Assembly (NCBI GenBank): GCA_021821785.1
Contig: JAKACD010000006.1
Location: 1-51,415 of the forward strand
Length of the DNA: 51,415 bases
From: Thermoplasmata archaeon
GTDB lineage: Archaea; Thermoplasmatota; Thermoplasmata; Lutacidiplasmatales; UBA184
Direction of reading: 5' to 3'
Shown here piece by piece: positions 20,228 through 36,282 of this stretch. The notes beneath the pieces are model-generated. The model did not search any database. It had not been told where the DNA came from and saw only the letters and a program-made list of their open reading frames with translations. How positions within the stretch are numbered: position 1 is the first letter of the stretch; each line of letters opens with the position of its first letter. The translations under genes were made by a program, and so were the position numbers.

Positions 20228-21013
20228 TCAGGGCCGGGGCGTGCCGGCGATGCGCCGGAACCACCGCTCGATCGAGGCGGGCCGCGGGTCCCGCTGGATC
20301 ATCTCTTCGAGCGCGGTGCCCACGACAACGCCGTCCGCGCCGGTCGAGAGGGCTCGGGCCGCGCTGGCCCGGTCCCGGATGCCGAACCCCACCAGAACCG
20401 GGAGTGAGGGGGCGGCCCGGTGCGCCGCGTTTACGAGGGGGGCCAGGTCGACTCGGTTACCCTCCGCGGCGTGCCCCGTCGTCCCGTAGTAGGCGACCAG
20501 GTAGAGAAACCCCCGCGAACTCCGGGCCAGGCGAGCGACCCGCTCGTCGGATCCGCCCGGGGCCGCGAGAAGCACGAGCGAGAGCCCGCCCGCGCGGGCC
20601 GCACGGCGCCACGGCGCCGACTCCTCGAGCGAGAGGTCGGGCACGATCAGCCCGGAGATCCCGGCGCCGCCCAGCGTTCGGGCCGCGGCCTCAAGGCCGT
20701 GGCGGAGCACCGGGTTCGCGTAGGTCATCACGGCGGTCGGGAGTACCTCGCTGGTGACCCGCGCCGCCTCGAGGAGGTCGGCCCAGGTCGTGCCTCCCCG
20801 GAGCGCCCGGTTCGCCGCGGCCTCCAGCACCGGTCCGTCCGCGATCGGGTCGGAGAACGGAAAGCCGAGCTCGAGCGCGGTCGCCCCCGCCTCCCGCAGC
20901 GCGAGGACCGTGGCTTTCAGCCGGGACGCCCGCCGGCGTTCGACCATGAGGTACGGAACGGCAATCGTCCGTCCTTCCGCGCGCGCCGTCCGCAGCGCTT
21001 TATCGAGTCGCAC
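20228..21013 (-). CDS. trpA: Tryptophan synthase alpha subunit
   Basis: [44 protein letters not shown]; likely GTG start at 21013 overlapping trpB. Confidence 0.95.
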
Positions 21014-22157
21014 CGAGCACCACCCCGAGGTCCTTGTCCCCACGCCCCGAGAGCGTCACGACGATATGCTGCTCCTTCGGGCGCCGCCGCGCCTCCGTCA
21101 CCGCCGCAAAGAGGGCGTGCGACGACTCGAGCGCCGGCAGGATCCCTTCGTCCACCGCGAGCCAGTGGAAGGCGCGGAGGGCGTCCTGGTCGTGGACCGC
21201 CGTGTAGCGGACCCGGCCGGAGTCCCGGAACCACGCATGCTCCGGCCCCACGCCCGGATAGTCGAGCCCGGCCGAGATGCTCTCGGTCTCGGAGACCTGG
21301 CCGTCCGCGTCCTGGAGCACGTAGGAAAGGGCGCCGTGCAGGATCCCCGGACGGCCGTAGGAGAGCGAGCCCGCGCCGGTCGATCCCGCCGGACCGCCCG
21401 CCTCGACCCCGAGGAGCTCGACCGACGTCTTCCGCAGCGGATGGAACGTGCCGAGGGCGTTCGATCCTCCCCCGACACAGGCGACCGCGAGGTCGGGGAG
21501 CCGGCCGAACGCGCGAACGGCCTGGCGACGGAGCTCGCGACCGATGACGCTCTGGAAGTCGGTCACGATCGATGGGAACGGATGGGGTCCCACCGCCGAA
21601 CCGATCAGGTAGTGCGTCGTCCGGACGTTCGCGATCCAGTCCCGGAGCGCGGCGTTGATCGCATCCTTCAGGGTCCGGGTCCCGCTCTTCACGGGGATGA
21701 CGCGGGCGCCCAGAAGGCGCATCCGATCGACGTTCGGCTTCTGCCGGTCGATATCGACCTCGCCCATGTAGACCTCGGTACGGAGCCCGAGCGCCGCGCC
21801 GATCATCGCGGTCGCGACACCGTGCTGGCCCGCCCCGGTCTCGGCGATCAGCCGCGGCTTCCCCATGCGCTGGGCGAGCAGACCCTGGCCGAGGGCGTTG
21901 TTGAACTTGTGCGCCCCCCCGTGCACCAGGTCCTCCCGCTTGAGCCAGATCTCGGCCCCGCCGGCGCGCCGAGTGAGCCGGGAGGCGAAGTAGAGCGGCG
22001 TCGGCCGGCCGCCGAGGGTCGTCGAGAGCCGGGAGAGCTCGCGCCGGAACGCCGGGTCTCTCCGGGCCTCCTTCCAGACCCGTTCGAGCTCCGCGAGGGC
22101 GGGGACGAGCGTCTCGGGGACGAACGCCCCTCCGTACGGTCCGTACCGTTCAGGCAT
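21000..22157 (-). CDS. trpB: Tryptophan synthase beta subunit
   Basis: [54 protein letters not shown]; start at ATG 22157. Confidence 0.96.
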
Positions 22158-22797
22158 GCCCGTGCTCGAACTCCTCGACGGCGCGGACGAAGGCGCGCAT
22201 CTTCTCGACGTCCTTGACCCCTCGGGTCTTTTCGATCCCCGAGGAGACATCGACGCCCCACGGTCGCACGACGGCGAGCGCCTCCCCTACATTCTCGGGA
22301 GTCAGTCCGCCGGCCAGGATGAACTTGCGACCAGGGTGCGCATCGACGATCCGCGCGCAGACCTCCCAGTCCGGGCGCACCCCGCTCCCGCCGGGGAGCG
22401 CCTGGCCCGCGGCGTCCAGATGGACCCGCGAGTAGTCCTCCGCGGGGGGAATGGTCGGCTCGGCTCCCGCGGATCCGGCGGGGGCGATCGGCACCGAGGG
22501 AACCAGGTGATGGATCTCGAGGTACTCGAGGCCGGAGGGCACGGCCCCGTAGACCTGCACGCGGTCGACCCCGACCTCCTCGAACAATCGGTGGATCAGA
22601 TCCGTCGACGGATTGACCACGACCGCCCATGCTTCGACCTCGGTGGGAAGGGTGCCGACGATCTCGATCGCCCGCTCGGTCGAGATCGACCGGGGGGAAT
22701 CTGGGACGTCGACCACGAGACCGGCCGCGCCGCCGTTCGGGATCTCGGAGGTCAGTGCCGGGTCGGTGAGCCCGCAGAACTTGACGAACGTCCTCAT
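22150..22797 (-). CDS. trpF: Phosphoribosylanthranilate isomerase
   Basis: [51 protein letters not shown]. Confidence 0.93.
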
Positions 22798-23609
22798 GCG
22801 GGTCCCTCCCCGCCCGGAGCGGGCTCCCGGGTCAACGATCGCAGGAAGCCGACCGGATCGGGCGACCGGGCCACAGCGGTCCCCACGAGAAGGCCGTCCG
22901 CTCCGGCCGACCAGAACCGACCGGCCGTTCGGGAGTCCTCGACGCCGCTCAGACCGAGGAGGGGGACGAGCCCCGCCTCGCGCGCCGCCCCGAGCGTCCC
23001 CTCGGCCGCGCTCCGGTCCAAAGCGAGGGAGTCCAGGTCCCGAACGTTCACGCCGTACATGTCCGCGGGCACCCGGTCGGCCACACTTAATTCTGACCGT
23101 CGGTGGAATTCGAGGAGAACCTCGAGGCCCCGCGTCTGGGCCCCCGCCGCCAGGGCTTCGAGCGGGACGGTGAGATGGCCTTCCGTTTCGAGCCGCGCGA
23201 TGAGCAGCACCGCGCTGGCTCCGGCCCGGGCGGCCGCGTCGAGCTGGACCGGCTCGACGACGAAGTCCTTGAACAGCACCGGGACGGCGGTCGCGCGAGC
23301 GAGGTCGGCGACATCCCGCGGCGCGCCATCGAACCGGGGCCCGGTGGCCAGACAGGAATAGCCGGTCACCGGCGCCGGAGCGGTCGCGCGGACGAAGTCC
23401 TCGACGCTCCGCGCCGGAAGCCGCGGGTCCGGCTGGCCCGGCGAGACCCGTTTGTATTCGACCAGCAACGCTCCCCGGGGCGCGTCCCTCCGCACCGCCT
23501 CCCGGAGGCTCGCCCGCCGGGGCGGCGGTGTCGGGGAAAGCCCGGCAAGGTACGCTGGCGAGCGCACGCGGGCCCGCGTGGCGGCGACGATCTCGGAAAG
23601 GAATCCCAT
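22794..23609 (-). CDS. trpC: Indole-3-glycerol phosphate synthase
   Basis: LLVEYKRVSPG, LFKDFVV, VLLIARL, YGVNVRDL, GADGLLVGTAV. Confidence 0.92.
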   Translation of the reverse strand: MGFLSEIVAATRARVRSPAYLAGLSPTPPPRRASLREAVRRDAPRGALLVEYKRVSPGQPDPRLPARSVEDFVRATAPAPVTGYSCLATGPRFDGAPRDVADLARATAVPVLFKDFVVEPVQLDAAARAGASAVLLIARLETEGHLTVPLEALAAGAQTRGLEVLLEFHRRSELSVADRVPADMYGVNVRDLDSLALDRSAAEGTLGAAREAGLVPLLGLSGVEDSRTAGRFWSAGADGLLVGTAVARSPDPVGFLRSLTREPAPGGEGPA

Positions 23610-23611
23610 GG

Positions 23612-24646
23612 TCACGGCCTCCCGGGCCCGCGCCGGCCCCGCGCGAGCGCGACAACGCCCGAGAAAAGCTCCTCGGCGCGGCCGTCGTCGAGCGCCTGAC
23701 GCGCGATCTCGACCCCTTTGGCCAACGACGAGGTCGCGCCCGCGATCCAGAGGGCCGCCCCGCTCGTCAGGAGCACCGAACCACGCCGGGCGCCGCCGCC
23801 GCCCGCGAGCACCCGACGCGCCTCCTCCGCGGCCTCGCTCGGAGGCAAGGAGCCCCAGTCGCCCCGACGGTCGTCGGGAGGGAGGAGGTCGTCCGGGCGG
23901 ACCCGGGTCGTGCGCGTCCCCTCTCCATCCCAGATCACGGTGGTCGTCACCGCGCGCGGAGAGAACTCGTCCGCGCCCTCGGTCGACGTCATCGCCATAC
24001 CCCGCCGGACCCCGAGACGTCCCAGGGCGAATGCGACCCGGTGGGCCGCCTCGAGGTTCGGAACCCCGACGACCTGGAACGGCACTCGCGCCGGGTTGGA
24101 AAGCGGCCCGAGCCGATTGAAGACGGTGGGGATGCCGACGATGCGCCGCGCCTCGGCGACGGCGCCGGTCGCCGGATGGAAGAGCGGAGCGTGGAGGAAG
24201 GCGAGCCGGTACCGGTCGTAGGTCGCTCGGGCAAAGTCCGGGTCGCTTGTCACCGGCAGGCCGAGCGCTTCGAGGAGGTCGCTCGACCCGCAAAGGCCTC
24301 GGGCGCTTCGGTTGCCGTGCTTCACGACCGGGGTCCCGGTCGCGGCGACCACGAAGGCGCTGACCGTGGAGACATTGAAGGACGGATGCGGCGCGCCGCC
24401 CGAGCCGCACAGATCGACCGGGCGGTCTCCCGGCGGGATCGGGAACGGCCGGGCCCGCCGCCGCATCTCTAGTGCGAACGCCGCGAGCTCCTCGGGGCCG
24501 CCGTCGCGCGCCGTGAGCGCGACGAGCAGCGCAGCCCGCTCCGCGTCGGTCGTCTCCGGGGCAAGGAGCACATCGAACGTCGCGCGGGCCGTGCGAGGGG
24601 TCATCGGCGACCGGTCGAGGATCCGTTCGAGCGCCTCCCGGATCAT
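23612..24646 (-). CDS. trpD: Anthranilate phosphoribosyltransferase
   Basis: VDLCGSGGAPHPSFNVSTVSAFVVAATGTPVVKHGNRSARGLCGSSDLLEALG, FLHAPLFHPA, FNRLGPLSNP. Confidence 0.95.
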   Translation of the reverse strand: MIREALERILDRSPMTPRTARATFDVLLAPETTDAERAALLVALTARDGGPEELAAFALEMRRRARPFPIPPGDRPVDLCGSGGAPHPSFNVSTVSAFVVAATGTPVVKHGNRSARGLCGSSDLLEALGLPVTSDPDFARATYDRYRLAFLHAPLFHPATGAVAEARRIVGIPTVFNRLGPLSNPARVPFQVVGVPNLEAAHRVAFALGRLGVRRGMAMTSTEGADEFSPRAVTTTVIWDGEGTRTTRVRPDDLLPPDDRRGDWGSLPPSEAAEEARRVLAGGGGARRGSVLLTSGAALWIAGATSSLAKGVEIARQALDDGRAEELFSGVVALARGRRGPGRP

Positions 24647-25224
24647 CGGCGCGCCTCCGCGACGAAGTTCGCGAGCAGCTTCGGGCCGTAGCGGGTCAGG
24701 TAGGACTCCGGATGGAACTGGACCGATTCGACCGGGCGGGTCCGGTGCCGGACCGCCATCACGAGGCCGTCCCGGCCGCGCGCGGAGATCTCGAGCGACT
24801 CGGGTACCGTCGCCGGGTCGAGGACGAGCGAGTGGTACCGTGCCGCCGACATCGGGCTCGGCACGCCGTGGAAGATCCCCTGCCCATCGTGCACCAGCTC
24901 GGAAAGCTCTCCGTGGACCGGTTCCGGAGCATGCACGACCCGAGCCCCGTACTGCTCCCCGATCAGCTGGTGGCCGAGGCAGACCCCAAGGAACGGCCGC
25001 TCGGTGTCCCATCGCGCCAAGAGCGCGCGCGAGAGGCCCGTGACGCGACGGTCGCTCGGGTGGCCGGGGCCGGGAGACAGCACGATCCCGTCCGGATCGA
25101 CCGCGAGCGCGGCCTTGAGAGGTTCGGTCGCCCGCAGGCAGACCACCTCGGCGCCGCGGGCGCGGAGCGCCTGCTCGATGTTGTGGACGAACGAATCCTC
25201 GTGGTCGACCAGGAGGACCTTCAT
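24643..25224 (-). CDS. trpG: Anthranilate synthase glutamine amidotransferase subunit
   Basis: LVDHEDSFVHNIEQ, LSPGPGHPSDR, FLGVCLGHQLIGEQYGA, SVQFHPESYLT. Confidence 0.95.
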   Translation of the reverse strand: MKVLLVDHEDSFVHNIEQALRARGAEVVCLRATEPLKAALAVDPDGIVLSPGPGHPSDRRVTGLSRALLARWDTERPFLGVCLGHQLIGEQYGARVVHAPEPVHGELSELVHDGQGIFHGVPSPMSAARYHSLVLDPATVPESLEISARGRDGLVMAVRHRTRPVESVQFHPESYLTRYGPKLLANFVAEARR

Positions 25225-26414
25225 AGAGGGCCCCCGAGGAGCGACGCCTCTACGTGCGAGAGTTTGGCGAGCGTTTCGCGGAACTCCTGGGCTGGACGGG
25301 ACCGATGGACGATCCCCGCCCCGGCCGACGTGTAGAGCGTAGGGCCTGCGGCGTACGCGGCCCGGATGGCGAGCGCGAAGTCGGCCCGACCGTGGGAGCG
25401 GACCAGGCCGACCGCTCCCGCGTACGGCCCCCGCCAGGTCGCCTCCTCTCGTCGGAGGAGCTCGGTCGCCCGGATCTTCGGCGCGCCGCTGACCGTGCCC
25501 GCGGGGAACGTTGCGCCGAGGGCCTGCCAAGGTCCGACCGACGGCTCGAGCTCGGCCCCGACCCGGCTCACGAGGTGCGTGAGTCGGGCGTACCGGACCT
25601 TACGCTCCCGCCACAGGAGGTGGACCGATCCGGGGCGGGCGACCCGTCCGAGGTCGTTGCGGGCAAGGTCGACCAGCATCCGGTGCTCGGCGAGCTCTTT
25701 CGGATCGACGTGGAGGGCGGCCCGGTTCTCGGCTCCCGGCCCTTCCCACATGGTCCCCGCGATCGGATCGACATAGGCCCGGCCCCGATCGAGCTGCACG
25801 ACCGCTTCGGGGGCGGCTCCGACCAGTTCCCGGTCGCCGAACTTGAGGTAGAAGAAGAAGGCGTACCGCTCCGAGGCGCGTAGTCGCGCGGCCCCCTCAA
25901 GGAGATCGGCGGGGCGCTTCCAGGTCCTTCGGTGGGCGAGGACGACCTGGAACGCCTCTCCGTCGCGGATATCCCGTTGCAGGCGACGTACGCTCGACTC
26001 GAAGGGGCGCCGCGGCAACGAGTCGCTCTCGGGGGTTCGGTGAGAGACCGGGCGGGAGGCGCCGAGGCGGGGCGGGGCGACCGACCGCACCGTGGGCCGG
26101 GGGACGAACGCGAACTCGCCGAGCGGGAACGGGGAGCCGCTGGGGAACGCGCGGAGGGCTGGCTCGAAGAGACCGACCGCGTCGAATCCCGCGTAGCCGA
26201 GTACGGCACGGTGGGGACCGCCGGCGAGGAACCGATCCGCCTCTCGGGCGAAGGCGCCGACGTCGGTCCGGCGATCGAGCGGTCGCACCTCGCGCGCGCC
26301 GGTGAACGATACTGCGAGACCGGGGCCATGGCCCCGTCCTCCCCGTCGCTCGAAGTAGCCGGCGACCTCCGCGCTCGCGGCCCCCGCGGCAAACGCACGG
26401 AACGGATCGCTCAT
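25221..26414 (-). CDS. trpE: Anthranilate synthase component I, compact (397 aa)
   Basis: DGEAFQVVLAHR, PIAGTMWEG, LVDLARNDLGRVARPGSV, FPAGTVSGAPKIRATELL, YTSAGAGIV. Confidence 0.92.
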   Translation of the reverse strand: MSDPFRAFAAGAASAEVAGYFERRGGRGHGPGLAVSFTGAREVRPLDRRTDVGAFAREADRFLAGGPHRAVLGYAGFDAVGLFEPALRAFPSGSPFPLGEFAFVPRPTVRSVAPPRLGASRPVSHRTPESDSLPRRPFESSVRRLQRDIRDGEAFQVVLAHRRTWKRPADLLEGAARLRASERYAFFFYLKFGDRELVGAAPEAVVQLDRGRAYVDPIAGTMWEGPGAENRAALHVDPKELAEHRMLVDLARNDLGRVARPGSVHLLWRERKVRYARLTHLVSRVGAELEPSVGPWQALGATFPAGTVSGAPKIRATELLRREEATWRGPYAGAVGLVRSHGRADFALAIRAAYAAGPTLYTSAGAGIVHRSRPAQEFRETLAKLSHVEASLLGGPL

Positions 26415-27730
26415 CGTCGGTCCTCGGAGACGAGCGCCTGGTGGAGTATCCGCAGCACGTCGGGTCCCCGAGCTTCCGGGACCGCGATCGAGAGGGCGCG
26501 GGGGGTGGCGCTGAACCCCTCCGCCCCGCTGACGGCGGCCGAAGGGACGCGGTCGAGATCGTCCAAGATGCCATCGCCGATCGCGATGACGAGGGTCACT
26601 GGGTAGGGGCCCTCCACCATCGCCGCGGCCTCCCGCGTGACGGGGGCCAGCGCCCGGATCGCGGTGACGACCTGCGGCGGCTCGAGGACGAGGCAGAGGA
26701 GTGCCGAGGAGGTGTAGAGCTGGACGAGGTTCACGCCCGCCGCGCTCAGCCGCTGAGAGACCTCCGCGACGATCCCCGGCCGTTGCCGGCCGCCGGGGAC
26801 GCGCAACCGGATGAGGCGAAGCGGCCGGAGCATCGTGAGGGCCCGGTTCCGCCGGCCCGACTGGGCCGGACCGATGGTCGTGACGACGCGGGGGTCGTCG
26901 AGGGAGCGGACCCGAAGGACGACGCTCTGGGCGCGCGCCGGTTCGATCGTGAGCGGATGCAGGACGCGGGCCCCGAACTGCGCGAGCTCCTCGGCCTCCT
27001 CGTAGGAGAGCTCGGGGATCGGCCGCGCGTCGGCGACCTCGTGCGGGTCGGCCGAGAGCACCGCGACATGGCGTTTGACGAGCTCGACCCGAGAGGCGCC
27101 GAGCAGCGCGCCGATCGCGGCGGCGGCGTAGTCGGACCCGCCCCGACCGAGCGTGGCGACCCGCCCCTCCAAGCTGCGCCCGAAGTAGCCGGTCACGACC
27201 GGCACCTCGCCGCGCGCGAGGCGACGGCCGAGGCCGCGACGGACGGCGGTCTGCGAACGGTCGAACAGGATCAGCGAAGCCCCGTAGGTGTTGTCGGTGA
27301 TCAACCCGAGGTGATCGGCCTCCACGGGGACGGCCGGAATCCCCTCCTCCACGAGCCGGGCCGAGAGCCAGTGGACGGCGAGCCGTTCCCCCTCGCTCAG
27401 GAGCCGGTCGGAGAGCGGCGGGTCGTGGCCGCCGACCGCTTCCACCTCGGCCAGGAGGCGCCGGATACGGTCGAGCTGGCGCCGCCCGTTCGGTGGGAGG
27501 CCCGGGTGCCGTCGGCGCAATTCCTCGAGCGCGTGCTGGTGGACCGCCTTCGACCGGGGATGGGCGAGCGTCTCAGTGAGGAGGTCGGTCACGCCCTGGC
27601 GGGCGGAGGCGACCACGACCACGGGGGTCCCATCCTGACGGACCGCCGCGACCTCTCGGGCGACCTGGGCGGCGTCCTCCAGCGAGGCCCCGCCGAACTT
27701 GAGGACCACCGGCGCCCGGGAGCGAGTCAC
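26411..27730 (-). CDS. lysC: Aspartate kinase with C-terminal ACT domain
   Basis: VLKFGGASLEDA, VPVVTGYFG, TLGRGGSDYAAAAIGALLGA, ACT-like RPGIVAEVSQRLSAAGVNLVQL. Confidence 0.92.
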   Translation of the reverse strand: MTRSRAPVVLKFGGASLEDAAQVAREVAAVRQDGTPVVVVASARQGVTDLLTETLAHPRSKAVHQHALEELRRRHPGLPPNGRRQLDRIRRLLAEVEAVGGHDPPLSDRLLSEGERLAVHWLSARLVEEGIPAVPVEADHLGLITDNTYGASLILFDRSQTAVRRGLGRRLARGEVPVVTGYFGRSLEGRVATLGRGGSDYAAAAIGALLGASRVELVKRHVAVLSADPHEVADARPIPELSYEEAEELAQFGARVLHPLTIEPARAQSVVLRVRSLDDPRVVTTIGPAQSGRRNRALTMLRPLRLIRLRVPGGRQRPGIVAEVSQRLSAAGVNLVQLYTSSALLCLVLEPPQVVTAIRALAPVTREAAAMVEGPYPVTLVIAIGDGILDDLDRVPSAAVSGAEGFSATPRALSIAVPEARGPDVLRILHQALVSEDRR

Positions 27731-27736
27731 GAAAGG

Positions 27737-28813
27737 TCAGCCTCCCCGGACCGGAAGGTCCCCTCGGGCGAGTGCGAGCTCGGCGTTGAGCACGGAGCCG
27801 CCCGCGCCCCCCCGGACCGCGTTGTGCGAGAGCACGAAGAACCGGAGGAAGGGAGGTTCCCAGCGGACCCGCCCGACCACCGCGGCCATGCCTCGAGCCC
27901 GGTGGGGCGCTCCGGCCCAGCGGTCCCGGAGCGGCTGGGGCCGGTCGGGCTCGCGCCGGAGCTCGATCGGCGGGTGCGGCGCGGTCGGAAGGTCGAGACC
28001 ACCGAGCGGGTCGAACGTCCTCCACGCGGCCTCGATTTCGGCCCGCGAGGGTCGATGCTCCGCTTCGATCGTGACCGCCTCGAGGTGCCCCTCCCGGGTC
28101 CCGACCCGCGCGCAGTGGGCGAGCACCGGGGTCGGAAGGTCGACGATGCGACGCCCGCGACGCAGCCCCAGGATCCGAGCGGTCTCCCGCTCCATCTTCT
28201 CCTCCTCCTCGCGGATGAACGGTACCACGTTGTCCGTGATGGCGAGCGACGGAACGCCGGGATAGCCCGCCCCCGACAGCGCTTGGTAGGTCGCCACGTG
28301 GATCGAACGCGGACGCAGGATCTCGGCGATCGGGGCGAGCGCGAGCACGAGGCCGGTCGTGGAGCAGTTCGGATTGGTGACGAGGATCCCGGGTCCGCGA
28401 GCCGTTCGTCGGCCGAGGAGCGAAAGGTGATCCCCGTTCACCTCGGGGACCAAGAGGGGCACCCCGGGATCGAGCCGGTGGTCGGCCGCGTTCGAGAAGA
28501 CGTGCACGCCGCGCCGGGCGAGCTCCGTTTCGATCGGACCGGCCGTCCCCGAGGGAAGCGCGGAGAAGGCGACCTTCACGCCCGCTCGCGCGAGACGCGC
28601 CGGGCTCCACGGCTCGAGCCGACGGTCCGCGAGGGCGCTCGGCGGCGCCTCCGCGAGCTGCCAGAGCTCGCCGAGCGTCTTCCCTTCCGACCGCTCGCCG
28701 GCTCCGAGGAACGGGAGGCCGAAGCGGGGGTGGTCGGCGAGGAGCCGCGCGAAGTGCTGTCCAATGTAGCCGCTGGCGCCCAGGATGGCGGTCGGGATCT
28801 CGATGTCGCTCAT
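27737..28813 (-). CDS. asd: Aspartate-semialdehyde dehydrogenase
   Basis: AILGASGYIGQHFARLLADHP, LVTNPNCSTTGLVLALAPI, YQALSGAGYPGV. Confidence 0.94.
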   Translation of the reverse strand: MSDIEIPTAILGASGYIGQHFARLLADHPRFGLPFLGAGERSEGKTLGELWQLAEAPPSALADRRLEPWSPARLARAGVKVAFSALPSGTAGPIETELARRGVHVFSNAADHRLDPGVPLLVPEVNGDHLSLLGRRTARGPGILVTNPNCSTTGLVLALAPIAEILRPRSIHVATYQALSGAGYPGVPSLAITDNVVPFIREEEEKMERETARILGLRRGRRIVDLPTPVLAHCARVGTREGHLEAVTIEAEHRPSRAEIEAAWRTFDPLGGLDLPTAPHPPIELRREPDRPQPLRDRWAGAPHRARGMAAVVGRVRWEPPFLRFFVLSHNAVRGGAGGSVLNAELALARGDLPVRGG

Positions 28814-29898
28814 GTGAGGAAACCTCCACGGAAGGCAAGGTCCGTGAGCGTGAACGCGGTCACCGACTCGAGCACGACCACCGACCGCGGGACGATGCAG
28901 GGGTCGTGGCGTCCGGTGACCACGAGGGTAGCCGGAAGTCCGGTCTTGAGGTCGACCGTGCGCTGGGGTCGGGCGATCGAGCTCGTCGGCTTGACGGCGA
29001 CGCGGAAGACGATCGGCATGCCGGTCGTGAGGCCCCCGAGGAGCCCGCCCGCCTGGTTCGTCTCGGTCACGACCTTCCCGTCCTTCCAGACGAACGGGTC
29101 GTTGTGCTCGCTGCCCCGCATCCGCGCGGCCGCGAAGCCCGCCCCGAATTCGATCGCCTTCACGGCTGGGACGGAGAAGGCCGCGTGGGCGATCTCGCTC
29201 TCGACCGAATCGAAGAACGGCTCGCCGAGCCCGACCGGTAGCCCCGCGACCCGGACCTCGACCGTTCCACCGACGCTGTCCCCGTCCCGGCGGGCCACCG
29301 CGATCGCCTCCTCCATACGGGCAGCCGCGATCGGGTCCGGGGTCCCGACCTCGTTGGCAGCGGCCCGGTTTCGGAGTTCGACAAGACCTAGGTCCGCCGG
29401 GACGTCGGCGTCTACGCCCCCGATCGAGCGGGTGAACGCCACGAGGTCCACTCCGATCGGACGTAGCAGCTCTCGGGCGATCGCGCCGGCGATCACGAGC
29501 CCTACGGTCATCCGACCCGAGAAGATCCCCCCGCCCGAGAGGTCGGCCTCGGGACCGTATCGGACGCGGGCGGGGTAGTCCGCGTGGCCGGGTCGCGGGG
29601 TGTCGCGCATCCGGTCGTAGGCCTCGCGCCGCACGTCCTCGTTGGCCACGTGGGCCCGGAGGGTTTCGCCGGTCGCGCGGCCCTCGACGACACCCGAGTC
29701 CACGACCAGGTGATCCTCCTCCCGGCGCTTGGTCGCGAGGCGGCGGCCGACCGGTCGCCGGCGATCGAGCTCGGCCTGGATGCGGGCCGCATCGATCGGG
29801 GTCCCCGCCGGGACGCCCTCGATGGTGACCCCGACCTCGGGGCCATGGCTCGTGCCGAAGATCGTCACTCGGTACCGCTCGCCGAACTGCATCGTCAT
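28810..29898 (-). CDS. aroC: Chorismate synthase
   Basis: FGTSHGPEVGVTIEGVPAG, RRPVGRRLATKRREEDHLVVDSGVVEGRATG, RPGHADYPARVRYG, GGLLGGLTTGMPIVFRVAVKPTSS. Confidence 0.96.
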   Translation of the reverse strand: MTMQFGERYRVTIFGTSHGPEVGVTIEGVPAGTPIDAARIQAELDRRRPVGRRLATKRREEDHLVVDSGVVEGRATGETLRAHVANEDVRREAYDRMRDTPRPGHADYPARVRYGPEADLSGGGIFSGRMTVGLVIAGAIARELLRPIGVDLVAFTRSIGGVDADVPADLGLVELRNRAAANEVGTPDPIAAARMEEAIAVARRDGDSVGGTVEVRVAGLPVGLGEPFFDSVESEIAHAAFSVPAVKAIEFGAGFAAARMRGSEHNDPFVWKDGKVVTETNQAGGLLGGLTTGMPIVFRVAVKPTSSIARPQRTVDLKTGLPATLVVTGRHDPCIVPRSVVVLESVTAFTLTDLAFRGGFLT

Positions 29899-31175
29899 GC
29901 TTCGACACCTCCCGGGGCGATCTGCGCGAGGACCGTCCAGAACTCGGGGAACGACTTCGCGACCGCCCGGCCGTCGCCGATGGCCGATGTGCCGCGGGCC
30001 GCGAGGGCGCCGACAGCGGCGCTCATCACCAGGCGGTGGTCGGAGAGAGTGCGTTTCCGGAACGGCCGGGGCCGCGCGACACCGCGGATCTCGAGATGCC
30101 CGCCGGCGATGCGGGTCTTTCCGCCCATCGCCGCGACCAGGCCGGCCGTCTCGGCGCGACGGTCGGATTCCTTGAGCGCGACGTGCGGCGCCCCGCGGAG
30201 CTCGCTCCGCCCCGGGATCGCCGCCGCCAGCACACCCGCGAGAGGGTAGAGGTCCGGCGCATCCGTGAGGTCCGCTCGGAACGGCTTGAGCGTCTCGCCC
30301 CCCGCGACCTCCGCGCCGGTGGACGTGCGGCGCACGCGAGCGCCGGCGCGTTCGAGCACGTCGAGCATCTGGGTGTCGGCCTGGGGCCAGACCGCCGGTA
30401 TGCCCTCGACTCGGACGCGTCCTCCCGTGAGCGCGGCGGCGACCCAGAAGTAGGCCGCCGAGGAAGCGTCTCCCGGCACCGAGAAGCCGGCCCGGGCGTA
30501 GCGCTGTCCGCCGGGGATCCGGACCACCTTGCCGCGCCGCTCCACCCGGATCCGGTGGTGGGCCAGGACCGCGAGGGTCGCCTCGATGTACGGCAGCGAG
30601 ACGAGGCGGCCCGTCAACGTGAGCCGGGAGTCGCCCGACAGGGTGGGCAGTACGAGCAGGAGAGCGGAAGCGAATTGAGAGCTCTCCGAGACATCGAGGG
30701 CCACGGAACCCGACCGGATCGGTCCTTCGACCGTGAACGGGAGGCCGACGCCCGTGTCCCCGCGGCGCACCGTCGCTCCCAGGGTACGGAGCGCGCGCAG
30801 GAGAGCCTCCATCGGGCGGGTAGGGAGCCGACCGGACCCTTGGAAGGTCACCGGTCGGGATTCGAGCGCCGCGAGTGCCGCGACGAAACGGAGCGTGGTT
30901 CCGGATTCTCCGCAATCGACCGTGATCGGGGCCGAGCTCTCGGAACGATGGCGGGGCCGGAGGGACCAGAGACCGGAACCCCGGTGGACGGTCGTTCCCA
31001 GGCGGTCCAGCGCTTGAGCGGTCGCGCGAGTGTCGTCCGAGTCGAGCGGTCGCCGGATATCGTACCGACGACCGGCGAGATGGCCCGAAACCAGCGCGCG
31101 GTGCGTGTAGCTTTTCGAAGGGGGTGCTCGGAGGCGACCCGCCGCGACCGCCCCGGAGAGACGGACGACGCTCAC
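29895..31175 (-). CDS. aroA: EPSP synthase
   Basis: PPSKSYTHRALV, DCGESGTTLRF, GSGRLPTRPMEALL, VPGDASSAAYFWVAAAL, DHRLVMSAAVGAL; GTG start at 31175. Confidence 0.95.
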   Translation of the reverse strand: MSVVRLSGAVAAGRLRAPPSKSYTHRALVSGHLAGRRYDIRRPLDSDDTRATAQALDRLGTTVHRGSGLWSLRPRHRSESSAPITVDCGESGTTLRFVAALAALESRPVTFQGSGRLPTRPMEALLRALRTLGATVRRGDTGVGLPFTVEGPIRSGSVALDVSESSQFASALLLVLPTLSGDSRLTLTGRLVSLPYIEATLAVLAHHRIRVERRGKVVRIPGGQRYARAGFSVPGDASSAAYFWVAAALTGGRVRVEGIPAVWPQADTQMLDVLERAGARVRRTSTGAEVAGGETLKPFRADLTDAPDLYPLAGVLAAAIPGRSELRGAPHVALKESDRRAETAGLVAAMGGKTRIAGGHLEIRGVARPRPFRKRTLSDHRLVMSAAVGALAARGTSAIGDGRAVAKSFPEFWTVLAQIAPGGVEA

Positions 31176-32050
31176 GGGCCAGCCCCCCGCGCCGCGATCG
31201 GCGAGCCCGAGACGGGGACCGTCAGCACCTCGCCCTCGTGACGCCGGAGGACGCGCACGACCTCCTCGGTACGGGTGGCCGGCTGGATCGCGGCGAGCGC
31301 CGGGCCGAGACCACTCACCCCCGCGGCGAGCGCTCCGGCGGCGCGGAGTTCGGTCCGCAGGGACTCGTAGGCGTAGCCCATGACGGACTCCACCAGCCTC
31401 GTGTTGCTTTCCATCGCCGCCCACCATTTCCCGGCTTGCGCCAGCTCGGCGGCCTCCTGACCGCGGGATCTCTCCCTGGCGAATGTCGCGGCCCACTCGG
31501 GGGAGGGGCGGTGGCGCGCTTCGGGAACCAGGAGGGCCGCTTCCCAGCCGGGTTCCGCCGGGCCGCTTCGGAGGAGTTGGTCCGCCCCGTTGTCGGTCAC
31601 GACGAACCCCGGCCGCACGCCCGCCAGCGCGTCGTCGAACGCACCGGTGGCGCTCACTCCCGCGGTTCTACCCGCGACGGCCGAAAGCCGTGCGATCTCC
31701 TCGGGAGCGGCCCGGGCGCCCGCGGCAGCCGCGACCGCGCGAGCGGTCGCGCCCGCGACCGCGCTCGAGCTCTTGAGACCCCGAGCGACGGGAACGGCGG
31801 AGCGGACGACGAGCCGACCGAGGATCGGGCGACCACCGAGGAACTCCGCTACCGCGAGCCGGAACGCGGTCGTGACGACCGGGCTCGCGTGCGCGGGATC
31901 CGCCGTAAGCTCGGTCTCCGAGCCGATGGGCCGGGGCTCGAGGTCGACGGTCACCTCCGCCTCTAGACCGATCCCGAGGGCGCAGCCGATCCCGGTCGGG
32001 AGGGCATTCACGATCGTGACCGCCGCGGTCGCCCGTCCTACGCCGTGCAT
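31172..32050 (-). CDS. aroK: Shikimate kinase, archaeal GHMP type
   Basis: ATAAVTIVNALPTGIGCALGIGLEAEV, VPVARGLKSSSAVAGATARAV, GVSATGAFDDALAG. Confidence 0.92.
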   Translation of the reverse strand: MHGVGRATAAVTIVNALPTGIGCALGIGLEAEVTVDLEPRPIGSETELTADPAHASPVVTTAFRLAVAEFLGGRPILGRLVVRSAVPVARGLKSSSAVAGATARAVAAAAGARAAPEEIARLSAVAGRTAGVSATGAFDDALAGVRPGFVVTDNGADQLLRSGPAEPGWEAALLVPEARHRPSPEWAATFARERSRGQEAAELAQAGKWWAAMESNTRLVESVMGYAYESLRTELRAAGALAAGVSGLGPALAAIQPATRTEEVVRVLRRHEGEVLTVPVSGSPIAARGAGP

Positions 32051-33549
32051 CCTTCCTCTCGGAGGGTCGCGGTGATCTCGTCGGGATCGGGTTCATCGCC
32101 CCACCAGATCCCAAAGCTGGCGGCCGCCTGGTAGACGAGCAGCCGGCGTCCGTCCTCGTAGGTCGCGCCGGCGGCTTCCACGGTCTGGCGGACGGTCGGA
32201 TCGCTCGGAAGATAGACCCAGTCGATCACGTGGGTCGTCGAGCGGACAAGGGATCGGAGCGGGAGCTCTAGCGGGCCCGTGCCAGTCCGACCCACGTCGG
32301 TCGCGTGGACCACGAGTCCCTCCGGCCGCGCCTCGGCCGACACGGCCGGCTCCGCGTCGAACTGCCGAGCGAGCGCGTTCGTCGGTTCGGCGCGTCGACC
32401 GTAGAGGCGCGCGCGGGCGCCCACCGTTCGGGCGGCCACGAGGGTCGCACGGGCCGCTCCTCCGGTGCCGAGGATCGCGAGCTCCCGCCCGTCCCAACGG
32501 TTCGTCTCCTTCAGCTCCTCGAGGCGGCGGAGGATCGCGACCAGGTCGGTGTTCTCCGCCGCGATCTCCCCGTCGCGCAGCGTCAGGCAGTTCGCGACCC
32601 CGCAGGCCTCCGCGCCCGGGCCGACCTCGGTCGCCACTTCGAGCGCGGCGGACTTGAGCGGATGCGTGACGTTCAGCCCCCGGAACCCCCACTCGGCGAG
32701 GCGGGGGAGCGATCCTACGAACTCCTCCTCGCTCGCGAAGTCGAGCGCGACATAGAGCCCGGCAAGTTCGCCCTCGCGCATCCACCGGGAATGGAGCGCC
32801 GGGCTCCGCGAATGGGCCACCGGATGGCCGGCGAGAGCGAAAAGGGGCGCCTCCGGACCGGCGTCGAGGAACGGCCGCAACCGATCGACCGAGATCTGGC
32901 TCGGTTCGACCGGGGCCGGAGCGGGGGCGGATCCCCGCGGCTCGGGCAGGGCCGCATAGACGAACGGGAAACCGAGCCGAGCCGAGAAGGCGCGGAAGAG
33001 CGGACCGGAAGCCCCGACGGTCATCGCGACCAGCGTGTTTTCCCCGGGGGGAGGCAGCCCTGGAAGCAGCTCCTCGAACAGCTGCCCGACGGACGCCGGA
33101 ACGACGACCTTCCGTACCGCCGCGCCGGTCGGGGCCTCCCGGACCCATCGCGACCACTCCGGGGCTGGGACCGGTTCGGTCCGATGGGTCGAGACGATGC
33201 GCCCGAGCCCGGTGGAGGGAGGGAGATGCAGGTCGGACTCTCGGTCGCGGTCCTTCTCGAGGTCGATCCAGCGGAACGGAAGCTCCGCCAAGCGGTCCAG
33301 GATCCGCGCACGCTCGGTGGGGTCGTCTGGACCCGCTCCGCCTTCGATGCGCGAACGGAGGGTCGCGACGAGCGGAAGGGGTGCGGGGAAGAGCTCCCGC
33401 GCCCGCTCGATCTCGCCCGGAGCGAACCGGTCGAAGCGGACCTCCGCGAGGTCCGCGCCCGCCGCCCGGGCTCGCTCGATCATCTCTCGGGCTTCCTCTA
33501 CCGTATCGGCGGGGAGCGAGACGATGACCCGGGGCCGGTGGTCGCTCAT
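32038..33549 (-). CDS. aroDE: Bifunctional 3-dehydroquinate dehydratase (type I)/shikimate dehydrogenase
   Basis: N-terminal DHQ dehydratase (ADLAEVRFDRF...RIVSTHRT...VRKVVVPA), C-terminal shikimate dehydrogenase (LAGHPVAHSRSPALHSRWM, GLNVTHPLKSAAL, NTDLVAILRRLEE, AILGTGGAARATLVA). Confidence 0.94.
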   Translation of the reverse strand: MSDHRPRVIVSLPADTVEEAREMIERARAAGADLAEVRFDRFAPGEIERARELFPAPLPLVATLRSRIEGGAGPDDPTERARILDRLAELPFRWIDLEKDRDRESDLHLPPSTGLGRIVSTHRTEPVPAPEWSRWVREAPTGAAVRKVVVPASVGQLFEELLPGLPPPGENTLVAMTVGASGPLFRAFSARLGFPFVYAALPEPRGSAPAPAPVEPSQISVDRLRPFLDAGPEAPLFALAGHPVAHSRSPALHSRWMREGELAGLYVALDFASEEEFVGSLPRLAEWGFRGLNVTHPLKSAALEVATEVGPGAEACGVANCLTLRDGEIAAENTDLVAILRRLEELKETNRWDGRELAILGTGGAARATLVAARTVGARARLYGRRAEPTNALARQFDAEPAVSAEARPEGLVVHATDVGRTGTGPLELPLRSLVRSTTHVIDWVYLPSDPTVRQTVEAAGATYEDGRRLLVYQAAASFGIWWGDEPDPDEITATLREEGCTA

Positions 33550-34577
33550 CGCTCTTCGATCGTCTCTTCGATCGCGTGGCCCAGGTGGCGCGCCGCCGGC
33601 AAGCGTACCCCGAGGACCTTCGCACCGACGTCGATCTCGGTGGTCGGGATGCGCCCGGTCTCGGTAGAGACCCGGACGGTCTCCGCCTCCTGAAGGAAGA
33701 GCGTCCGTCGCTCGCCCTGGTCGTCGGCCACAAGGACGTCCATCGGACGACGCTCGATCTTGATGCGGCCGACCCGGACGGAGCGCGCCGCGCCGTGGGG
33801 CTCGACGATGAGGACCGCGTCACCGGGCCCGAGCTCGGCGAGGTACCGCGTCGAGCCATCCGCCATGAGGACGTAGGAGTGGGCCGCGCCGGCATTGACC
33901 CGGAACGGGCGCGGCCGGCTGAACTGAGAGCCGACCGCCTCGCTGGCGACATGGAAGAGGAACGCCGCGGCGCTCCCCACGAGCAACCCTTCGGCGGGCC
34001 GGAGCATCGAGGTCGTGTCGACGATCACCCGGTCGCCGACCCCGACCGGTCGGACCGAGGTGAGGGGCACCCCCGTCCAGGCGAGTCCCGTCGGCAGCGG
34101 GCCGTCCACGATCGACTCGAGATGGTCGACGTCCGAGGGGGTCGTGACCTCCACGAGCACCCGGTCGGCGCCGTGCTCGAGCGCCCCGAGCGCCGCCGGG
34201 ACCTCACTAGGTCTTCGCGCATAGACCCAGAGCTCGAACCGTCGGCCCCGGGCGGCGATCGCGTTCTCGAGCGGGATGACCCGATCCGCGGTCCACTCGA
34301 TAGCGAGGATCCCGCCCGGGGCCACTCCATGGACGGCCGTCCGGAGGTGGGCCTCGTCCGTGACCGCCACGATCGGGATCGGCGGGGCGTCCGGGGCGTT
34401 GCGCAGCAACCGATCGCCAGCCCGTCGGAGGAGCTCTTCCCCCGGCTCCGCCGAGAAGGGGGTCTCCGCGTCCAGTACGAACGAGCGGAAGTCGCGTCTA
34501 CGCGCCCGCTCGAGGATCGGCCCGAGCTCCCCCGGTGCCGACGGGCGGGGGACGATCGTCACGCGCTCGCGCGTCAT
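33546..34577 (-). CDS. 3-dehydroquinate synthase II (archaeal type)
   Basis: GILAIEWTADRVIPLENAIA, VGDRVIVDTTSMLRPAEGLLVGSAAAFLFHVASEA, FRVNAGAAHSYVLMADGSTRYLAELGPGDAVLIV. Confidence 0.93.
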   Translation of the reverse strand: MTRERVTIVPRPSAPGELGPILERARRRDFRSFVLDAETPFSAEPGEELLRRAGDRLLRNAPDAPPIPIVAVTDEAHLRTAVHGVAPGGILAIEWTADRVIPLENAIAARGRRFELWVYARRPSEVPAALGALEHGADRVLVEVTTPSDVDHLESIVDGPLPTGLAWTGVPLTSVRPVGVGDRVIVDTTSMLRPAEGLLVGSAAAFLFHVASEAVGSQFSRPRPFRVNAGAAHSYVLMADGSTRYLAELGPGDAVLIVEPHGAARSVRVGRIKIERRPMDVLVADDQGERRTLFLQEAETVRVSTETGRIPTTEIDVGAKVLGVRLPAARHLGHAIEETIEER

Positions 34578-34592
34578 GGGTCGATCTCCGTC

Positions 34593-35345
34593 CTACGAAC
34601 TGCCGTGGAGGACGTCGGTGATGCGACGGGCCAGCGGGCCCACCGGACGGCGCTGGAAGAGGTTCCGCCCGATGCAGATACCGGCCCCTCCGGCGCGGAC
34701 GCTGTCGGCGACGATCTTCAGGAACTCCGCCTCGTTGTCGAGGCGCACCCCGCCCCCGATCAATACGGGGACCGGGGTCGTCCGGCACATCTTCGCGAAC
34801 TCATCGGGGGAGCCCGGATAGCTCGTCTTCACGATGTCGGCACCGGTGTCGGCCGCCGCCCGGGCCGCGTGGCGCAGCTCGTCCGGGGTGGCCCCGTTCG
34901 GCTTCTTCACGTAGGCCATGCAGAGCAGGGGAAGCCCGAGCGCGCGGCACTCATCGGCGGCGATCCCGAGGTCCCGGAGCATCTCGGGCTCCTCGGGGAT
35001 GCCGAAGTTCACCTGGATCGAGAGGACGTCCGCGCCGAGGCTCACCGCCTCCTCGGCCGTGCCGACCAGGACCTTTCGGTTCGAGGTCGAGCCGAGGCTC
35101 GTCGAGGCCGAGAGGTGGATCCCGAGCAGGGTCGTCGGCTGGAGCACCGGCACCAGCTCGCGGACCGCTCCCTTCGTGACGATCAGGAGGTCCGCGCCGC
35201 CCTCCTGGAGCTCGGTCGCAAGGGGGGCGAGCTCTTCGAGCCCGTCGATCGGGCCCATCGACACCGGATGGTCGAGCGGGACCGAAAAAAGCCGGTGGGC
35301 CGGGTCGGGAAAGATGCGCTTCAGTCGGATCGTTTTTCCGTACAT
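34593..35345 (-). CDS. 2-amino-3,7-dideoxy-D-threo-hept-6-ulosonate synthase (class I aldolase)
   Basis: FSVPLDHPVSMGPIDGLE, IHLSASTSLG, YVKKPNGATPDELRHAARAAADTGADIVKTSYPGSPDEFAKM, VLIGGGVRLDNEAEFLKIVADSVRAGGAGICIGRN; SD-like gaggag before ATG 35345. Confidence 0.92.
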   Translation of the reverse strand: MYGKTIRLKRIFPDPAHRLFSVPLDHPVSMGPIDGLEELAPLATELQEGGADLLIVTKGAVRELVPVLQPTTLLGIHLSASTSLGSTSNRKVLVGTAEEAVSLGADVLSIQVNFGIPEEPEMLRDLGIAADECRALGLPLLCMAYVKKPNGATPDELRHAARAAADTGADIVKTSYPGSPDEFAKMCRTTPVPVLIGGGVRLDNEAEFLKIVADSVRAGGAGICIGRNLFQRRPVGPLARRITDVLHGSS

Positions 35346-35348
35346 GTT

Positions 35349-35442
35349 TCTCCTCTACGAAGGCTCGCAGGGGAGACGCCCGGAGGGTGCGGCCCGCGCC
35401 CCGGAGGGGCGGGTCGGGATGGCGCCCTCCCGGCGCCTCCCG
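35349..35442 (-). promoter_or_regulatory. Structured 5' leader of the shikimate/Trp superoperon (candidate attenuator)
   Basis: Minus strand: CGGGAGGCGCC-gggag-GGCGCC(a)TCCCG hairpin (35415-35442); CGCCGGGAGGG (35425-35435) can instead pair with CCCTCCGGGCG (35377-35387), 10 of 11 positions; TCTCCCCT (35369-35376) can pair with AGAGGAGA (35349-35356), which contains the SD of the first gene. Confidence 0.45.
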
Positions 35443-35443
35443 T

Positions 35444-35515
35444 TCACCAGAGCCAGGTCGCGGCAGTCCGGTCCATTGCCCGCGCGTCTCGGCTGGGGCC
35501 CGTCCGGTCCGCCAT
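35444..35515 (-). CDS. Candidate leader peptide MADRTGPSRDARAMDRTAATWLW*
   Basis: 23-codon ORF in the leader, ending acc tgg ctc tgg tga; ATG ~28 nt from a TATA-like element, fitting a leaderless transcript start. Confidence 0.45.
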   Translation of the reverse strand: MADRTGPSRDARAMDRTAATWLW

Positions 35516-35538: not shown

Positions 35539-36282
35539 CTATTTAGTCTTCGCTGGGGCGCTTGTGCGGGCGGTCGCCGCGAGCACTCCGTCCACGAGGA
35601 GCGCGTGGATGGAGAAGCCCCGCATCATCTGGTCCCACATCTGCTTGCGGACCTCGGGCGAGGTCGCGAAGCCGGCCACGATCTGGCCGATCCACTCGGA
35701 GTGCTCCACGTCCGCGACCACGTGGAGGGTGTAGTACTCGAGGTGGGACTCGTCGACATGGTAGTGCTTCCGGAACGACGGCAGGAGCCGGGCGCACAGC
35801 TCGACGTTCGGCGGCTCGCTCGAGCCGGCGGCAGAGACGTAGAACGGGTGGACCCGGTTGGTGTACAGGAAGTCGTCGATCGCGACCATCGTGCTCGGGA
35901 GGAGCGGAGCGGACTGCACCTCGTCACGGGGCACGCCGAGCCCCTCGCAGAACCGTAGCCACAGCTCCGGATGCCCCGGCGCCTTGCCCTTCGGGTCGCC
36001 GGCCTCCTCGACAAGCTGGTCGAGGATCATGCGGCGGTACCGGTCGTTCGCCGGCTCCCAGGAGCAGTTCGCGAACCGCTCGGCCATCGCGATCGGGACG
36101 CTGGCGAGCCAGGGGTAGAACTGCTTCACCCACTCCCGCACGGTCGGGAGCGGCACCTCGCCCCGCTCGAGCTGGGCGAAGAACGGGTGGGTCTTGAACG
36201 GGTGATGGGCCATCTTGTACTTCGTGAGCTCGTCGCGGAACTTCTCGCCCTCGAAGCGGACCCAGGGGGCTTCTGGCATCAT
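35539..36282 (-). CDS. Heme-oxygenase-like diiron (PqqC/TenA/CADD-like) protein
   Basis: 247 aa; KTHPFFAQLERGEVPLPTVREWVKQFY, LVEEAGDPKGKAPGHPELW, ESHLEYYTLHVVADVEHSEW (HxxxDxxH). Confidence 0.75.
   Translation of the reverse strand: MMPEAPWVRFEGEKFRDELTKYKMAHHPFKTHPFFAQLERGEVPLPTVREWVKQFYPWLASVPIAMAERFANCSWEPANDRYRRMILDQLVEEAGDPKGKAPGHPELWLRFCEGLGVPRDEVQSAPLLPSTMVAIDDFLYTNRVHPFYVSAAGSSEPPNVELCARLLPSFRKHYHVDESHLEYYTLHVVADVEHSEWIGQIVAGFATSPEVRKQMWDQMMRGFSIHALLVDGVLAATARTSAPAKTK
35540..35546 (-). promoter_or_regulatory. TATA-like box (ctaaata on minus strand) for the superoperon
   Basis: AT-rich heptamer overlapping the stop of the upstream gene; centre ~28 nt from leader-peptide ATG 35515. 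Confidence 0.45.

Follow-up and report, generated by a model that had tools for sequence, protein, structure and literature searches.

The window, the whole 51,415-nucleotide stretch of DNA that was analysed, comes from an uncultivated lineage of the Lutacidiplasmatales, an order of acid-soil Thermoplasmatota with a GC content of about 69% (PMC9287336). Its minus strand carries an operon of 15 genes in the order aroA'-aroB'-aroDE-aroK-aroA-aroC-asd-aspartate kinase-trpE-G-D-C-F-B-A. The first gene (34593–35345) encodes 2-amino-3,7-dideoxy-D-threo-hept-6-ulosonate synthase (aroA', a DhnA-type aldolase; NCBIfam NF005556 above cut-off). It is followed by 3-dehydroquinate synthase II (aroB', 33546–34577), a 3-dehydroquinate dehydratase/shikimate dehydrogenase fusion (aroDE, 32038–33549), an archaeal GHMP-type shikimate kinase (aroK, 31172–32050; TIGR01920 above cut-off), EPSP synthase (aroA, 29895–31160, start approximate; TIGR01356 above cut-off) and chorismate synthase (aroC, 28810–29871, start approximate; NF003793 and TIGR00033 above their cut-offs). 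Next is an aspartate-semialdehyde dehydrogenase-like gene (asd, 27737–28813, start approximate), annotated from its translation alone, which occupies the same place in every compared operon that reaches that far. Aspartate kinase (26411–27730; TIGR00657 above cut-off) leads into trpE-trpG-trpD-trpC-trpF-trpB-trpA (20228–26414), which were identified with Pfam and have the same order in relatives. The original prediction of an operon running from aspartate to tryptophan is thus borne out, with aspartate kinase and asd alongside the shikimate genes, and trpA as its last gene.

The leader studied here is also on the minus strand, between the aldolase ATG at 35345 and a CADD/PqqC-like gene (haem-oxygenase fold) at 35539–36282. 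The latter is a conserved neighbour of the operon in many relatives, including those that have no leader. A TATA box (TAAATA, 35540–35545) lies 30 nt, counted from its first base, ahead of the ATG of a mini-ORF of 23 codons (35444–35515). This reads MADRTGPSRDARAMDRTAATWLW and then stop, as originally described, and is recognised from its sequence and its conservation in relatives. Its last codons are TGG CTC TGG (Trp-Leu-Trp, 35447–35455), directly before TGA, and are the proposed sensor of charged tRNA-Trp. One base past the stop codon begins segment A (CGGGAGGCGCC, 35432–35442), whose partner is either segment B (GGGAGGGCGCC, 35421–35431), in a hairpin that reaches 35415, or segment C (CCCTCCGGGCGTCTCCC, 35371–35387). 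Segment C pairs either with A and B together, which leaves the Shine-Dalgarno site in front of the first operon gene open, or, through its 3' portion, with that site itself, which closes it. The Shine-Dalgarno region (AGAGGAGA, 35349–35356) was defined from sequence and computed accessibility, and the AGAGGAG noted earlier before the aldolase ATG is indeed present.

Relatives were collected in several ways. When they were searched for with the DNA of the region and the sequence upstream of their aldolase gene was read, the same arrangement was found in nearly every genome of the genus that has an intact region and trp genes. This search, within the genus and in other genera, recovered TATA box, ATG, mini-ORF and Trp ending without asking for the motif. 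A class-wide protein search added leaders of other genera ending in TPWSW (g22), GSWWW (g21), RIWAW (g19) and RTWAW (g20), in each case directly before the stop, and two further g21 leaders, ending in PWW and FWSWW, had been missed by the RNA model described below. A pattern of the form TATA..ATG..TGGNNNTGGTGA was also scanned against 400 genomes of the class. It matched in about 60 genomes of the family, the reversed control pattern giving no match, and beyond the family there were scattered, chance-like matches. A second match in one genome (G256) was discarded; its reading frame is interrupted by a stop, and the surrounding 3 kb contain no gene of a trp or aro operon.

The mini-ORF upstream of the operon is conserved and open in frame, with a length of 21–24 codons in the 51 leaders with a readable start, and of exactly 23 codons in 42 of them. 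The distance from TATA box to ATG is 28–31 nt across these 51. This is the spacing that had been proposed for the window, and a leaderless transcript, starting at or next to the ATG, is to be expected from it. Tryptophan is found at position −1 in all 51 leaders and at −3 in 48 of them. There is a single Trp among the 911 residues of the mini-ORF bodies, against 103 in the 51 four-residue tails. The body itself drifts, with a pairwise identity of 19% over the 51 leaders; 39 loci that had been collected via the motif itself were counted for the drift of the body and for the spacing, and not for the conservation of the motif. It is of interest that the length stays almost fixed at 23 codons while the sequence drifts.

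The endings found are WLW, WPW, WSW, WAW, WGW, WWW, PWW, SWW and GSW. The middle codon of the tail therefore varies (L, P, S, A, G or W), as do the number and place of the Trp codons (WWW, PWW, SWW), while the terminal Trp is constant. The stop codon is always TGA, which is also the most frequent stop within this operon. In G023 (L013/L049) the first Trp codon has been lost, leaving GSW, and the RNA core behind it is unchanged; this leader is a natural test of which Trp codon counts. One leader and operon head of this archaeal kind (L032) is from a contig titled 'bacterium isolate clean3188' (DAIDCO010000003.1), a title that is probably wrong. The check on relatives proposed with the original prediction thus gave the expected result: the mini-ORF persists and keeps its Trp codons at the end, with drift in the remainder. 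The end product of the operon matches the putative regulatory codons, with TGG at the end of the leader and trpE to trpA at the end of the operon. This conservation supports the candidate role of the leader peptide as a Trp sensor.

The RNA directly past the stop codon can adopt two mutually exclusive structures: A and B either form the local A:B hairpin or pair with C. Segment C lies 25–55 nt before the first gene, in the window 26–42 nt before its ATG, and covers the Shine-Dalgarno site when not paired with A and B. The helices were tested one by one, because RNAalifold run on an automatic alignment mixed the two folds. In the A:B helix, four pairs have changes on both sides among the 24 leaders counted. 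The helix of A and B with C is about 20 bp long; against dinucleotide shuffles it has a mean z of −3.0, with 43 of 52 leaders below −2, and this result includes the widely differing sequences of G124, G221 and G068. Among 12 divergent leaders, each leader's own A and B fit its own C better than partners swapped between genera, none of 20000 permutations being as good. In G013 and G019, one change is carried through all three segments (GGCACC, GGTGCC, GTGCC), and appears in the A:B helix as a double change of G to A and C to U. The comparison shows that both predicted folds persist across genera through two-sided changes.

The position of a ribosome on the leader was represented by a mask over A that advanced from its 5' end, the side of the stop codon. 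All folds were calculated for RNA alone at 37 °C, without kinetics. The mean accessibility of the Shine-Dalgarno site falls from 0.38 when the first free base is +3 past the stop to 0.22 when it is +9. This mean change of 0.155 in the real leaders compares with 0.000 (sd 0.019) in shuffled leaders, in which accessibility is 0.363 at every offset. A shift of more than 0.05 is seen in the direction of closing in 31 of 52 species, and in the opposite direction in one. The probability that the site is paired with the stretch that contains C is 0.38 at +2 and about 0.70 at +6; the computed step of the switch falls at +3 to +6. In about a third of species the site is computed to be closed in every state, so that the model does not hold equally well throughout.

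These offsets can be related to codons by an assumption taken from bacterial ribosomes, namely that RNA can fold from about 12 nt beyond the first position of the P-site codon. With this edge, the RNA would be free from +3 when the last Trp codon occupies the A site of the ribosome, and from +6 when the ribosome is at the stop codon. The computed switch then falls between a stall at the last Trp codon (open) and the stop-codon position (closed). With an edge of about 15 nt, a stall at the last Trp codon would already half-close the site, and a fully open RNA would require a stall at the earlier Trp codon; G023 (GSW) and G221 (PWW), which have no Trp at −3, are a problem for this longer edge. 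Under either edge, the prediction is an open site for at least one Trp stall and a closed one at the stop; a biosynthetic operon would profit from a switch in this direction.

The distribution of the leader was determined across the family. With a covariance model of the core, 65 strong places (at least 45 bits) were obtained in 63 of 103 family genomes, the next score being 28 bits. Three genomes were added by inspection (G068, G221 and G223), so that the leader is present in 66 of the 103. A search for a second Trp leader per genome was negative, with the RNA model giving one strong place in each; two genomes have the leader twice, on different contigs, which is probably one place split in assembly. 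No near match to the leader region was found in the plasmid collection.

Where the contig of a leader-bearing genome is intact, the operon runs on into the trp genes, and in many more the leader and trpE are 9–10 kb apart on one contig. In the members of the genus without a leader (G018, G010, G007, G099, G184), the operon ends at asd or aspartate kinase, followed by trpF alone. Neither these genomes nor the g18 genomes tested yielded an ortholog of trpE or trpB. It is notable that such members of the genus (L130, L131, L145, L146, L147) retain trpF as the last gene of the shikimate operon when the other steps of the pathway are missing. At this place G234, which is nested among leader-bearing relatives, has lost the leader together with the genes beyond aroC. 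G068 has a separate trp operon, and its leader, which reads MAAGPCHVSYDARPAMSSCAWGW and then stop, precedes trpE and not the aldolase. In three g17 genomes (G048, G143, G219) the trp operon is also separate, and no leader was found there. The apparent exceptions that were checked, a leader without trpE (G235, G239, G008) and trpE without a leader (G253, G267, G224), are explained by contig ends that interrupt the operon. Mapped on the aldolase tree, leader presence requires six changes (five to seven among bootstraps), of which at least three are forced by well-supported branches. On this comparison of sequences, the leader and the trp genes go together.

The two-state RNA downstream of the mini-ORF, the probable control at the Shine-Dalgarno site and the link to the trp genes are additions to the original prediction. 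The leader has each of the sequence-testable features of a general Trp-codon attenuator, these being a leader ORF, codons for the end product and (as computed) exclusive pairings. The conserved ORF with its Trp ending, the two exclusive predicted folds and the link to the trp genes strongly suggest an attenuation mechanism as a whole. We infer that the leader is translated, that it responds to Trp, which way it switches, and that it controls translation rather than transcription. On the basis of these observations, we consider it on balance probable that the leader works as a ribosome-mediated, Trp-codon leader-peptide attenuator, with translation initiation at the first operon gene as its target.

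In the mechanism proposed, the transcript would start at or near the leader ATG, and the first ribosome would translate the 23-codon ORF. When charged tRNA-Trp is scarce, the ribosome would wait on the terminal Trp codons and leave segment A free; A and B would then pair with C, leaving the Shine-Dalgarno site open, and aroA' would be translated (ON). When Trp is plentiful, the ribosome would reach UGA and cover A, or would depart and allow the A:B hairpin to form first. With A covered or held in A:B, segment C would pair with the Shine-Dalgarno site (OFF). General archaeal factors may also terminate the untranslated downstream RNA.

The terminal Trp and the stop codon also fit a second reading, in which free Trp, or the terminal Trp of the nascent peptide, slows release at UGA, as in TnaC. 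The parked ribosome would cover A and close the Shine-Dalgarno site at high Trp, the same high-Trp closed state as predicted above. The closed state is computed exactly at the stop-codon position, and Trp at −1 and TGA show no variation among 51–52 leaders. However, in known arrest peptides the residues within the exit tunnel are conserved, whereas here the body of the peptide drifts and only its terminal Trp residues are conserved; TGA, as noted, is in any case the commonest stop in the operon. We regard stop-codon arrest as unlikely, though deserving of some weight.

Marginally less probable again is attenuation of transcription by the same codons, in which the folds and the ribosome position would decide the progress of RNA polymerase, for example if termination factors act on RNA that is not being translated. 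The anatomy of the leader is like that of bacterial trp attenuators, and so long an operon would profit from an early stop. Against this, no conserved U-run of a terminator was found behind any hairpin (T4 occurs in 5 of 52 leaders and T5 in 1 of 52), and the alternative pairing of C that is conserved is with the Shine-Dalgarno site. The control site is therefore most likely, on the computed folds, the Shine-Dalgarno site rather than a terminator. An attenuator of the E. coli trpL type, with an intrinsic terminator (a GC hairpin and a U-run), was rejected, and the leader is not placed in that class because there is no terminator U-run. Read-through of UGA into the first gene was also rejected, the distance from the stop to the first ATG not being constant modulo 3.

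It seems improbable that Trp or a protein is bound directly by an RNA element to which the ORF is incidental. Members of the genus share a highly conserved core (CTGGTGANCGGGAGGCGCCGGGAGGGCGCC), but in other genera the RNA sequence diverges strongly, with the frame, ORF length and terminal Trp codons kept, and Rfam gave no family match to the leader RNA up to E = 1 (riboswitch and T-box families included). Finally, a chance ORF in a GC-rich leader, which the original prediction had allowed for on the grounds that TGG is not rare at this GC content, is ruled out by the presence of the leader in 66 of the 103 genomes of the family, by its almost constant length and spacing, and by the concentration of Trp in the tails.

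Trp-codon attenuators are classical in bacteria, and the leaders of Actinobacteria have double or triple UGG codons (PMC1262725). The bacterial examples (E. coli trpL, and those predicted for Corynebacterium and Streptomyces; PMC1262725) share with the archaeal leader a short ORF at the head of a trp operon with repeated UGG near its end, exclusive alternative RNA pairings, and a proposed switch between a ribosome on the Trp codons and one at the stop. Unlike them, the archaeal mini-ORF is leaderless, has no terminator and U-run, and is followed by a pairing that covers the Shine-Dalgarno site, and the controlled unit begins with shikimate genes. In the use of ribosome position on a leader ORF to decide access to a downstream Shine-Dalgarno site, it resembles the erm leader peptides, which are translational attenuators; the erm signal is an antibiotic, whereas here it would be an amino acid codon in a biosynthetic operon. 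TnaC, the leader of the tryptophanase operon, likewise has a Trp-containing ORF and a UGA stop, but induces a catabolic operon via a conserved nascent peptide, while the archaeal body is unconserved and the operon biosynthetic.

Among archaea, control of Trp or aromatic biosynthesis by the supply of Trp or aromatics is known from TrpY of Methanothermobacter and Tar/TK0271 of Thermococcus, which are DNA-binding transcription factors without a leader peptide or RNA switch (PMC6737238). Control of this type at a DNA operator could exist alongside the leader. The same 2019 paper notes that little beyond DNA-binding regulators is known for archaeal Trp synthesis (PMC6737238), and an earlier one counts only the trp regulation systems of M. 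thermautotrophicus and T. kodakarensis (PMC1854888). No precedent for archaeal leader-peptide attenuation was found in the open-access literature, an absence that is not proof. Leaders for other amino acids offer no obvious comparison, because in 16 genomes of the genus (G000–G015) hisG was not found and KARI (ilvC) gave only weak, partial matches. The genus may need histidine and branched-chain amino acids while making its own Trp.

Leader-peptide attenuation is a textbook bacterial mechanism, and the leader of this family would put it in a second domain of life. We think it rather more probable than otherwise that archaea evolved codon-based attenuation independently of bacteria, with a leaderless 23-codon ORF reading the charging of tRNA-Trp, and the position of the ribosome selecting the fold that opens or covers the Shine-Dalgarno site of a 15-gene aspartate-to-tryptophan operon. 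The sequence elements are testable, consisting of two TGG codons, one stop and three pairing segments. If true, the mechanism is built from archaeal parts, a leaderless mini-ORF and the covering of a Shine-Dalgarno site. It would require archaeal ribosomes to be on the leader RNA early enough, and thus bears on the coupling of transcription and translation in archaea.
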